A stretch of 42,556 nt of DNA from the NCBI GenBank assembly GCA_013334765.1, contig JAAXWW010000004.1:1-42556 (forward strand), in the 5' to 3' direction. This DNA is from Candidatus Moraniibacteriota bacterium (lineage in GTDB: Bacteria; Patescibacteriota; Minisyncoccia; Moranbacterales; UBA2206). The notes under the pieces were generated by a model, which was given only the letters and a program-made list of their open reading frames with translations, ran no database searches and was not told the origin of the DNA. The number at the start of each line of letters is the position of its first letter. Position 1 is the first letter of the stretch. Shown here piece after piece: positions 22,762 through 30,859 of this stretch. Both the position numbers and the translations under genes were made by a program.

Positions 22762-23503
22762 TTGCTCTCGTAACTTTTACTCCTAACTTGGAAAATCGTT
22801 CAATGATTGTCCGGCAATATTCCGGATCAAGTTCGATCATGATGCATTTTCTTTTCGTCTGTTCACAGGCAATGCCGGTAGAACCGGAACCTGCGCAAGG
22901 TTCGTAGACAACATCACCGATTGAAGTGCTGTTCAAAATCAATCTCCTCATTAAGCTCAATGGCTTTTGCGTCGGATGGAGCGCGCTCTTGTTTGGCTTA
23001 GGACAAAACAGAACCGATTTGTCCTGCGACTTCCTGAATTCATGCACCCCGAACCAACCGACGGCGATAAGTTCGTGCATCGGGAGATAATCTTTCCTTC
23101 CGATCACTGCGTGATTTTTTATCCAGATCAGAAGCTGGGAAAAATGCACTCCGGATTTTTCCATGCCTTCGCGCAGAGCGAAAATCTGCTTGTCGCTGTT
23201 GAAAATATAGAACGAGTTTTTGCGCGTGAGACATGGAATGACTAGCGCAATCAGATCTTCCACAAATTTGGCATACTGCTTTTCGGAAACGAATCCGTCA
23301 TTGAGAATGTCCTTATCCACTTTGACTTGGCTGAATCCCTTCTTGCTGGCCGTATAGTCAATTCCGTATGGGATGTCAGAGATGAAAGCGTTGATTTTGC
23401 TTTCTCCGATCGCTTTTTCCACGATCTTGGGATCCAAAGCATCACCACACACCAGAATGTGATCGCCGATTTGAAACTTGTCCCCGTAATTAATTTTTGT
23501 CAT
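22733..23503 (-). CDS. Site-specific DNA methyltransferase (N4/N6)
   Basis: AFISDIPYGIDYTASKKGF (DPPY-like DIPY), HPTQKPLSLMRRLI, GDVVYEPCAGSGSTGIACEQTKRKCIMIELDPEYC. Confidence 0.9.
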   Translation of the reverse strand: MTKINYGDKFQIGDHILVCGDALDPKIVEKAIGESKINAFISDIPYGIDYTASKKGFSQVKVDKDILNDGFVSEKQYAKFVEDLIALVIPCLTRKNSFYIFNSDKQIFALREGMEKSGVHFSQLLIWIKNHAVIGRKDYLPMHELIAVGWFGVHEFRKSQDKSVLFCPKPNKSALHPTQKPLSLMRRLILNSTSIGDVVYEPCAGSGSTGIACEQTKRKCIMIELDPEYCRTIIERFSKLGVKVTRAIDKDKRDGK

Positions 23504-24788
23504 TTGTTTTTGTGTTATTGATTAGCTTGGCTTTTCGTCCAGTCAGTTTCTCATGCCTATTAATTATCAGTTGGCAAAACTTGGGTTCGATTTCCGTAAG
23601 ATAGGCTCTACGCTTAAGCATCTCTGCCGCTATCAGGGTGCTTCCGCTCCCGCCGTATAAATCCAAAATGACATCGCCTGGTTTTGAACACCTGCGAATG
23701 GCTTTTTCGTGGAGCGTCGGCGGTTTGGAAGTACTGTGCTCATACTCATTCCCAGCCAAACGCTTAGCCAGCCAGATATCCAATTCGTCCAGGATATCGT
23801 CGATAAGGCGATTGCCAGTTCCGATTTCCTTGTTCATCACCTCGTTCAAATTTTGCAAATTCCGGGAAAGATAGGGACTGCCGACTGTGCCATAAACACA
23901 GGGTTCGTAGCATTTGGAAAAAGCCACGCCCGGAGTCGGATTCTGGGCATTCTTGATCCACATGCAGACCCTCTTGTTCTCGATGCCGAGTTCCCGAAAA
24001 ATATCCTGCACCATTCCTATGTAGCGCTGGTCGCAATAGCAAAAGTAATGGAAGGCTTTGTTAGCCACCGACATCGCGCTTCGCATACCGCTTCTCAAAA
24101 ATTCGCGATATTCCGAGTCGGATTTGTTATCGTCCACCTTGCCTCCATAGCTTTTGTTCCCGCTGATTCCCTTGTTATAGGAAACACCGATGTTGTAAAT
24201 CGGATCGGTATATATCATGGACGTTTTCTCTCCGCCCATCAGCCTTTTGATGTTTTCAGGATCGTGCGCATCTCCGCAAAGCAAGCGATGCGACCCGATC
24301 TCGAACAAGTCCCCTGACTTTATTTCGGTTTCCTCTATCTTCTCCAATTCCTTTTCTTCCTGAAAATTGTCATCTTCGGTTTCCAAAGAATCGTCCCAAA
24401 TCTGAGACAAATCATCATCGTCAAAACCGACCTCCAAAAGGACGCCTAAATCGAACTCCTTGAGAAGTTCCAAATCCCATTCCCCGGTATTCTTGTTCAA
24501 CCTGAGATTGAGCTCTTTTTCCTTTTCGATATCGGGAATATCCAAGTAGACCACCGGGACTTCCTTGTATCCCATCTCCTTGGCCACTTTCAATCTGAAA
24601 TGCCCGCCTATGAGGATATTCTTCCTGTTGGGAGCGGAATTGGCGATCAAGGGATTGACCAGACCGAATCTTTCGATGCTTTCTCTTAACTTTGCTTTTT
24701 TGACGTCATCCCATTTCCGAGGATTATATACAGACGCCTTTAAAGAATCAATTTCAACAAAATTGATTCTTAGATTTTCTTTTCCCAT
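23490..24788 (-). CDS. ParB N-terminal domain fused to a DNA methyltransferase
   Basis: NPRKWDDVKKAKLRESIERFGLVNPLIAN...LIGGHFRLKVAKEMG (ParB-like); YTDPIYNIG, KPGDVILDLYGGSGSTLIAAEMLKRRAYLTEIEPKFC. Confidence 0.9.
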   Translation of the reverse strand: MGKENLRINFVEIDSLKASVYNPRKWDDVKKAKLRESIERFGLVNPLIANSAPNRKNILIGGHFRLKVAKEMGYKEVPVVYLDIPDIEKEKELNLRLNKNTGEWDLELLKEFDLGVLLEVGFDDDDLSQIWDDSLETEDDNFQEEKELEKIEETEIKSGDLFEIGSHRLLCGDAHDPENIKRLMGGEKTSMIYTDPIYNIGVSYNKGISGNKSYGGKVDDNKSDSEYREFLRSGMRSAMSVANKAFHYFCYCDQRYIGMVQDIFRELGIENKRVCMWIKNAQNPTPGVAFSKCYEPCVYGTVGSPYLSRNLQNLNEVMNKEIGTGNRLIDDILDELDIWLAKRLAGNEYEHSTSKPPTLHEKAIRRCSKPGDVILDLYGGSGSTLIAAEMLKRRAYLTEIEPKFCQLIINRHEKLTGRKAKLINNTKTNDKN

Positions 24789-28578: not shown

Positions 28579-28719
28579 ATGTTCAAAGACAAAGTTGTCA
28601 TAGTAACCGGCGCATCAAGCGGCATCGGAGCTGAAACTGCCTTGGCCTTTGCCACGGTAATTTCGAATATCCTAAAGGAAGCGGAAAATGGTTTGAAGGA
28701 AAACATGAACCTGTCATAA
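28579..28719 (+). pseudogene. Truncated short-chain dehydrogenase N-terminus
   Basis: MFKDKVVIVTGASSGIGAETALAFA (SDR TGxxxGIG motif), homology lost at about 28650, stop at 28719. Confidence 0.8.
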
Positions 28720-29258
28720 CCAAAGAAGTCTTCGATCTGGCTCAGGAACAATTGAAGAGGGATCGGCTCGTAAGAGACAGCAAGGAATTCGCCTTCACCA
28801 AGCTCCTCACTTGCGGAATCTGCGGATCGGGCATAACCGCCGATGAAAAATACAAGAAACTGAAAAACGGAAACACCGCTTCATATATCTACTACGGATG
28901 CACTCGTTCGAGAGATCTTTCCTGCAAGCTGGGGTATATCCGGGAAGAAGAACTGATCAAGCAGATGCTTCGGATAGTCGACAAGATCGATATCAATGAA
29001 ATCGGCCTCAAGAAGCAGTTTGAGGAAGAAGTGATGAGATACAACAGATTCCAGATTTCCGTCCTTGAAATGAACGGCAAGGAAAAAAAGATAGACAAGA
29101 AAAAGGAGTTCGATATCAAGGCCTATGCAAAATATATCCTGGCGGAAGGAAAAATAAATGAAAAAAGGGAATTATTGGCCAGCCTCAAAAGCAGGCTGGT
29201 TTTGGGAAAGGATAAGAAATTAACACTCAAAAAAGATGAAACCGCCATAGGATTATAA
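28653..29258 (+). pseudogene. C-terminal fragment of a large serine recombinase
   Basis: Open frame HGNFEYPKGSGKWFEGKHEPVITKEVFDLAQEQLKRDRL...LLTCGICGSGITADEKYK...YIYYGCTRSRDLSC (recombinase zinc ribbon); no catalytic N-terminal domain. Confidence 0.88.
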
Positions 29259-29262
29259 AAAA

Positions 29263-29290
29263 TTGATTTTTGTTCTTTAAAATGTATAAT
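29263..29290 (+). promoter_or_regulatory. Sigma-70-type promoter
   Basis: TTGATT (29263-29268), 16-nt spacer, TATAAT (29285-29290). Confidence 0.65.
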
Positions 29291-29296
29291 TAACAT

Positions 29297-29470
29297 ACAA
29301 TCTAGCCTAAACTCAGGCCTTAATGGCTCGGGCATGGCTTAATAATAAATCTCACGTGAATAGAAACGGTCTTCTGACCGGCGCTTATTCACGTGAGTCA
29401 ATGGCTCGAAAGAGTTATTGGGCAGTCCCGAAAGGGTTCTGTCGCCTGGTTCGGAAGACCTTTTGTGTAC
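29297..29470 (+). ncRNA. Candidate structured RNA or 5' leader, family not assigned
   Basis: CTCACGTGAATA (29351-29362)/TATTCACGTGAG (29386-29397) 12-bp stem enclosing CGGTC-TTCT-GACCG; CAATGGCTC-GAAA-GAGTTATTG (29399-29420); GGCAG...CCC-GAAA-GGG...CTGTC (29421-29443); promoter upstream. Ends are approximate. Confidence 0.6.
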
Positions 29471-29509
29471 CCAAAAAACTATTTTTGTAATTTCTAATAA
29501 ACAATAAAA

Positions 29510-30313
29510 ATGAATATTATTCAAAAGTTGGCTGAAAAATACAAGCAGTCAAAACAGAAGAAGGAAGGATTGAAATCTTTTGAAAAGATACTTATTGAAG
29601 CTGTGAAAGATGGAAAATTGACCGGAAGTGAAATAGCTCAATTAGAAAAAGATAAAGAAAATTTAGGAATAAGCGAGGAAGATATGAAAAAATTCAAAAT
29701 CAACGCTTATCTTACAGCCTTTCAAAATTCAAAATCAGATGGAAAAATGACAGATGATGAAGAGAAGGAATTGGAAAAAATCCAAAAATATCTTCAGATA
29801 TCGGATGAAAACATCATTGCGACAAAAGCGGAATTATCAAAATTAAGATTGCTTAATGAAATTCAAAAGGGTAATGTTCCTGAAATTCAGGTCGCAAGCC
29901 TGATAACTCAAAAGGGAGAAAAGGTTTATTGGAGCGAACCTTCCAGCTTAACAGAAGAAAAAGTGATACGTAGAGGCTATGAAGGAGGCTCCCAAGGATT
30001 CAGCTTTCGCGTAATGAAGGGAGTGACTTATCGAGTGGGAGCACACAAAGGAAACTTAATAACGGAAACGGGAATGGTTTCCGTAAGCACGGGAGATTTC
30101 ATAATCAGCAACAAGAGAATCGTCTTCAGGGGAAATGCTAAATCATTTTCCATCAAATTGGATAAGATTCTGGATGTCCAATGCTATTCAGATGGCATAA
30201 AAATATTCGAAAACAATAAATCAAATCCGAGACTGATCCAGTTTTTTAACAACAACAATGGGGATGTGGTCGGATCAATCCTTTCTTATTCAATAAATAA
30301 TTACCAAGCCTAG
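29510..30313 (+). CDS. TerB-like helical domain plus bacterial PH-like domain protein
   Basis: N-terminal helical repeat AVKDGKLTGSEIAQLEKDKENLGISEEDM / SKSDGKMTDDEEKELEKIQKYLQISDENI; C-terminal GDFIISNKRIVFRGNAKSFSIKLDKILDVQCYSDGIKIF. Confidence 0.65.
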   Translation: MNIIQKLAEKYKQSKQKKEGLKSFEKILIEAVKDGKLTGSEIAQLEKDKENLGISEEDMKKFKINAYLTAFQNSKSDGKMTDDEEKELEKIQKYLQISDENIIATKAELSKLRLLNEIQKGNVPEIQVASLITQKGEKVYWSEPSSLTEEKVIRRGYEGGSQGFSFRVMKGVTYRVGAHKGNLITETGMVSVSTGDFIISNKRIVFRGNAKSFSIKLDKILDVQCYSDGIKIFENNKSNPRLIQFFNNNNGDVVGSILSYSINNYQA

Positions 30314-30859
30314 ATGAAAAAACATTACGACAGCATTAATGATCTTATCAAAAATGAATTGAATAATGCAGAGGAGATGAAGGGCTCAGAATTAATGAAT
30401 AAACTGTCCGGTGTCAAAGAAAGGGGCTATTGCAACCGAGCAGAATTTATTGATATATGCATGTGGAAAAGTGCCAGGCCGAAAAGACATTATCTTGAAA
30501 ACACGGAAGAGAAAATCATTGAGATAACAAAGAAAGTTTTTGCCACCAAGCTAGAAAAAAGAAAGATGGAATTGCTTACAAAATTAAAGGGCGTGTCTAT
30601 TCCTGTCGCTTCAGCTATCCTGACTGTAACCGATCCTAAAGACTACGGGATAATAGACATCAGAGTTTGGCAAATACTTCATCTGTATGATTCTGTTAAA
30701 GACAATCCAAAAGGAAAATCCTTTGATTTCAATAATTGGTACAACTATCTCATGAAATTAAGATATTACGCCAAAAAATTCAATGTTGACGCTAGGGATA
30801 TCGAAAGAACGATTTTTTATCATCATAGGAAAATACAAGAAGGAAATCTATACGGCTGA
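30314..30859 (+). CDS. HhH-GPD-like helical protein of unknown function
   Basis: LLTKLKGVSIPVASAILTVTDPKDYGIIDIRVWQILHLY resembles an HhH DNA-glycosylase-like core. Confidence 0.55.
   Translation: MKKHYDSINDLIKNELNNAEEMKGSELMNKLSGVKERGYCNRAEFIDICMWKSARPKRHYLENTEEKIIEITKKVFATKLEKRKMELLTKLKGVSIPVASAILTVTDPKDYGIIDIRVWQILHLYDSVKDNPKGKSFDFNNWYNYLMKLRYYAKKFNVDARDIERTIFYHHRKIQEGNLYG

Follow-up and report, generated by a model that had tools for sequence, protein, structure and literature searches.

Riboswitch-type attenuators and translational three-strand switches belong to a general class of leaders with mutually exclusive helices. The LOOT RNA was reportedly first described by Weinberg in 2017, and its leader context may already have been familiar to its first describers. 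LOOT entered Rfam 14 as a metagenome-derived family (PMC7779021), has served as an example of extreme cross-covariation (PMC7657543) and received a revised structure in Rfam 15 (PMC11701678); the passages found on it in these three papers state no function, and Rfam types it as 'Gene; sRNA', without known function. Like the raiA RNA, it is a structured RNA of bacteria that is known chiefly through its sequence.

The window analysed here is a stretch of 42,556 nucleotides from a Candidatus Moraniibacteriota bacterium. Searching the whole window with cmscan returned five matches above gathering scores, namely four tRNAs and, on the + strand, one LOOT RNA: a full-length match to RF03000 (29304-29439, model positions 1-121) that scored 51.9 bits (E 4.6e-7), the curated gathering score being 46.4 bits. 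A preliminary description of this interval had left the family unassigned, a statement that the RF03000 match above the curated cut-off replaces; it had also put forward raiA as a candidate, and at cmscan against Rfam neither raiA nor any other family for structured RNA gave a match to this element in the window. The window copy contains the same P1, P2, P2b, P3 and P4 elements as the RF03000 model, from which it differs by a long P4, linker insertions and a low score.

Just upstream of the RNA lies a sigma-70-like promoter on the + strand (29263-29290), with TTGATT at 29263-29268, a spacer of 16 nucleotides and TATAAT at 29285-29290; it agrees with the consensus at 10 of 12 positions and sits exactly where it had been proposed. 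The interval 29263-29509 folds with a minimum free energy (MFE) of -75.7 kcal/mol, far more stable than shuffled sequence (-49.9 +/- 4.1 kcal/mol in 200 dinucleotide shuffles, none of them equally stable; z = -6.29), and all RF03000 consensus helices also appear in the unconstrained MFE fold of this copy. The hairpins picked out in the preliminary description are present as drawn: the 12-bp P2 stem, formed by CTCACGTGAATA (29351-29362) and TATTCACGTGAG (29386-29397), encloses the inner hairpin P2b, CGGTC-TTCT-GACCG (29367-29380, -6.8 kcal/mol alone); P3 (29399-29420) is a 9-bp stem capped by a GAAA loop at 29408-29411; and P4 (29421-29443), found by both the RF03000 match and the MFE fold, combines CCC/GGG with outer GGCAG/CTGTC around a GAAA loop at 29430-29433. 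Absent from that description were P1 (29304-29339), the helix that we call PT (29368-29376 with 29452-29460) and membership in an Rfam family. Homologues of the RNA covary strongly. Of the conditions that the preliminary description had named for its own refutation, two were checked, a lack of covariation and a fold no better than that of shuffled sequence, and neither holds. The window RNA is a real structured RNA and a member of a known family without assigned function.

The Rfam match ends before three elements that lie 3' of it, namely the second arm of PT, a U-tract and, in some copies, a duplicate of P2 at the start region of the next gene. PT is a long-range helix of 9–12 bp between the P2 terminal loop and the strand just before the conserved U-tract; in the window, its 5' arm GGTCTTCTG (29368-29376) pairs with its 3' arm CGGAAGACC (29452-29460) over 9 bp (-13.0 kcal/mol as a duplex), and the terminator-like U-tract TTTTGTGT (29461-29468) follows directly. 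We examined PT in a first set of 149 loci holding LOOT matches and in a held-out set of 57 usable loci, for which predictions had been written down beforehand, together about 200 copies from the same phylum, leaving the four sub-threshold matches L009-L011 and L013 out of the P2 and PT counts. A PT of at least 7 bp was found in 97% of first-set loci, as compared to 47% with swapped partners, and in 93% of held-out loci, as compared to 39%, in a control that disregards differences in base composition between genomes. PT pairs were also among the strongest covarying pairs in an alignment of 101 sequences (z up to 20), and all 12 counted pairs had changes on both sides in some sequences while being ~94% paired; the model used to make this alignment already included PT, which biases it towards the helix, whereas the swap tests are free of that bias. 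The U-tract (CUUUGUGUU, CUUUUUGU and similar) has at least 6 T in 9 positions in 117 of 144 copies.

Because the PT 5' arm is shared with P2b, PT and P2b are mutually exclusive, and because PT crosses P2, the two together would make a pseudoknot. The terminator loop that PT closes measures ~75 nt, and a simple consensus scan called no terminator at the PT and U-tract of the window. A third alternative hairpin, between the PT 3' arm and a strand beyond the U-tract (for example in L051, L133 and L077), is strong in 20 of 144 loci against 3.4% with swapped partners; since it is enriched but not universal, we did not build on it.

P1 carries a further signature. The 11-nt receptor of GAAA tetraloops is CCUAAG/UAUGG (PMC11381326), and CCUAA...YAUGG is found in the P1 of nearly all LOOT copies, together with a P3 loop that is GAAA in 135 of 137 scored copies on a stem that varies. 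The window copy has both of these conserved features, with the receptor-like internal loop of P1 formed by CCTAA (29306-29310) and CATGG (29333-29337). The likeness is not exact: most LOOT copies have A...C or C...U where the canonical receptor has G...U, the window reading CCUAAA...GCAUGG, which is the commonest LOOT variant. Alignment columns 8 and 34, at this receptor position, covary non-canonically. The P4 loop varies across the family (GCAA, GAAA, TTCG, GTAA). From these patterns we infer that the P3 GAAA loop docks into the receptor-like motif of P1.

The genomic surroundings of LOOT revealed a number of clues to its role: firstly, by simple ORF heuristics and in counts that are not fully independent, several genomes having more than one copy, the nearest downstream ORF is co-directional with LOOT in 140 of 146 first-set and 56 of 57 held-out loci (196/203 combined), while the strand of the upstream ORF is random (68 + and 79 - in the first set, 23 + and 34 - in the held-out set; combined Fisher p 2e-34); secondly, the downstream gene mostly starts less than 100 nt from the end of the LOOT model, which leaves little room for another promoter; thirdly, TATAAT with at most one mismatch occurs 6–45 nt upstream of 148 of 199 LOOT loci, as compared to 33 in an interval 200 nt further upstream, and an ACAAYT-type motif stands just upstream of LOOT in 151 copies but only 22 times further upstream. 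A co-directional next gene combined with promoter enrichment upstream indicates that LOOT carries a promoter of its own and is the leader of the gene behind it. In 196 of 203 loci the RNA lies as a cis-regulatory leader would, a short way ahead of a gene that reads in the same direction, and PT and the U-tract (joined in 44 of 202 copies, the window not among them, by the start-region duplicate) have the sequence features of an expression platform.

The same observations bear on whether LOOT might instead be a free-standing, trans-acting sRNA, whose terminator would be PT with the U-tract and whose downstream gene would be a habitual neighbour or a target. Its Rfam type says as much, in disagreement with a genomic context that is that of a leader, and a private promoter with a terminator-like 3' end would suit an sRNA well. 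We nonetheless regard this as unlikely, since co-directional downstream genes in 196 of 203 loci beside a random upstream strand are the signature of a leader, and since U-tract and start codon usually stand too close together for another promoter to fit between them. We favour the reading that the window RNA (29304-29475) is a cis-acting attenuator that serves the accessory gene at 29510, and probably also the abutting gene at 30314, as their 5' leader, a proposal from sequence in which we have good though incomplete confidence. The preliminary description had proposed that the RNA, under its own promoter, is either a functional ncRNA or a leader regulating the 29510 gene in cis, and the covariation of homologues and the orientation of their downstream genes agree with it.

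The genes that LOOT precedes are accessory, and include methyltransferases, nucleases, zinc-ribbon and other membrane proteins, and lipoproteins; they are functionally so diverse that no ligand is suggested. Among the few opposite-strand cases are L009-L011, sub-threshold copies in which the 3' half is missing. All three keep the promoter and the 5' half, and their inner hairpin runs straight into a T-run, so that each resembles half a LOOT pared down to a simple terminator.

In a subset of loci, the P2 5' strand recurs at the start region of the next gene. With a threshold of at least 8 nt (the usual length is 9–12 nt), such duplicates were found in 44 of 202 copies (32/145 in the first set and 12/57 held out), as compared to 0.2-0.4% in controls in which stems and leaders were exchanged between loci (11/2867 and 5/3176, respectively). 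The duplicate ends a median of 3 nt before the ATG. In a genome with seven LOOT copies (G273), the seven stems all differ and several match their own leaders. Each copy has a P2 sequence of its own, which matches the start region next to it and no shared target; this argues further against a trans-acting sRNA. Pairs of homologous genes behave likewise: L086 and L121, whose proteins are 67% identical, have the stems CCTATCAAGC and CCGTCCAAA, which match the start regions of their respective loci, and L022/L062 (45% identical) and L026/L075 (62%) also keep the match with different stem sequences. Inherited duplication alone would not be expected to preserve a match while its sequence changes. 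The duplicate occurs in 9 of 10 DNA-methyltransferase loci against 34 of 192 others, an association noticed post hoc (8/8 in the first set, 1/2 held out). Since ~79% of copies are without the duplicate, LOOT must be able to do its work without it, and in the window copy, where downstream-gene orientation, PT and the P1 receptor signature are all present, it is absent; the window P2 sequence has no second occurrence anywhere in its genome. The target-like P2 copy led us to consider a self-splicing or guide RNA, which we rejected because LOOT is too small for such a role, no protein accompanies it consistently, and its P2 copy is tied to the start codon. In one locus (L104, genome G349), the start region AATCCATCCAAGGAGTATG, ~45 nt beyond the end of the model, looks like a stem copy yet is mismatched to its own P2; the P2 that it does match belongs to L095, in a different genome, as though the RNA of L104 had been exchanged.

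A duplicated stem next to a gene could also be a footprint of recombination or copying, left when LOOT and its gene were joined as a mobile cassette, rather than a regulatory site. Such a cassette would fit the distribution of LOOT, which is patchy: matches above the cut-off came from 7 of 35 same-family genomes, 103 of 387 at class level and 82 of 382 at phylum level, with 1–7 copies per genome in genomes that are small (mostly 0.5–1.5 Mb, a size that suggests Patescibacteria/CPR), and from none of the named control genomes. It would fit, too, the accessory nature of the downstream genes, LOOT copies at contig ends in one genome (G502), four copies in viral-contig records, and the recombinase remnant that adjoins the window copy. 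We consider it improbable, however, because homologous genes keep exact but different pairs of P2 and start region, which would require upkeep; because the P2 copy lies within a few nt of the ATG in 40 of the 43 cases analysed; and because no recombinase is a consistent neighbour among the downstream families.

In the window, the gene that the RNA leads (29510-30313, +) encodes a protein of 267 amino acids. The preliminary description had placed the RNA between a recombinase relic and a TerB/PH-like gene; the flanking gene is where it was said to be, but TerB matches its N-terminal half only weakly and below threshold (E 0.0018). Residues 4-99 give a partial match to the PADLOC candidate defence family PDC-S48 (E 3e-11). 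No relatives of the protein were found in the 55 other genomes searched, which marks the gene as accessory and leaves no orthologous leader for direct comparison. A second gene (30314-30859, +) abuts the first and is probably part of the same transcript; it resembles a DNA glycosylase (Ogg-HhH, E 3.4e-5, below the Pfam cut-off; NCBIfam N-glycosylase/DNA lyase, E 6e-8, also below cut-off). With a candidate defence-family match and a glycosylase-like neighbour, 29510-30859 may possibly be a small defence or repair island. On the upstream side, the recombinase relic was borne out as a C-terminal remnant of a serine recombinase (Zn_ribbon_recom, E 3e-8). Across 28581-29258, the beginning of a short-chain dehydrogenase-like ORF breaks off and passes into this remnant, a junction that is likely an insertion or deletion scar.

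That the window copy is itself a decaying relic without function might be supposed from the truncated recombinase that it adjoins and from its score, the lower of the two in its genome (51.9 versus 79.9 bits); the other copy is on contig C1, before a zinc-ribbon membrane-type gene. Against this, its promoter, P1 receptor motif, GAAA loop, all helices, PT and U-tract are intact, and it reaches 70.8 bits under an extended model of ours, which covers the 3' extension and has the window copy among its sequences. We therefore hold decay to be very improbable.

Together, these observations suggest a mechanism. Transcription would start at the dedicated promoter just upstream of LOOT, and P1 and P3, likely docking through the tetraloop-receptor contact, would form a compact body with P2. 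The P2 loop could then either close on itself as P2b or pair as PT with the strand before the U-tract; pairing as PT would yield a terminator-like helix or a pseudoknot, and we infer that whichever of P2b and PT wins decides whether polymerase stops at the U-tract or reads through into the gene. In about one-fifth of copies, of which the window is not one, the P2 3' strand (29386-29397 in the window) could pair either with the P2 5' strand or with the copy at the start codon, a choice that would expose or hide the start and so add a layer of translational control.

Like the riboswitch-type attenuators and three-strand switches, LOOT would be a structured 5' leader with mutually exclusive helices and a terminator-like element, and in a subset one strand has a choice of partner between leader and start region. 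It differs from this class in that it has no known ligand, its downstream genes form no pathway, only ~1/5 of copies have the start-region copy and its PT loop is very long. We see roughly even chances for a broader reading, in which LOOT is an orphan cis-regulator, serving in this phylum as a portable leader that brings its own promoter to accessory genes (restriction-modification, nucleases, membrane and secreted proteins). The 3' platform that the Rfam match omits would then consist of a pseudoknot-forming terminator and, in some loci, among them nearly all those with DNA-methyltransferase genes, a private start-codon copy of the stem, making a three-strand translation switch particular to each copy. 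Comparison of sequences argues for a leader role and defines a 3' platform beyond the Rfam match. Leader placement, a defined 3' platform and a private start-codon partner turn an orphan motif into a testable hypothesis, and LOOT could illustrate how horizontally acquired genes, for instance those of restriction-modification systems, are kept under control in very small bacterial genomes.

Elsewhere in the window, on the - strand at 23490-24788, lies a DNA methyltransferase that matches PADLOC type II methyltransferase models (E 4e-58) and has, by eye, a ParB-like N-terminal region. A pattern scan of viral contigs returned 20 stretches, of which only four contain LOOT (L156, L164, L166 and L168, all in IMG/VR viral contigs); L164 has a start-codon copy before a restriction-enzyme-like gene. 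LOOT copies are also found at the ends of contigs (G502 contigs C25, C40 and C88, G091:C54 and G119:C3). In G502, LOOT stands at both ends of one 3.7-kb contig and recurs with equal scores on other contigs, which suggests that the contig-end copies in this genome are near-identical repeats that break assemblies.
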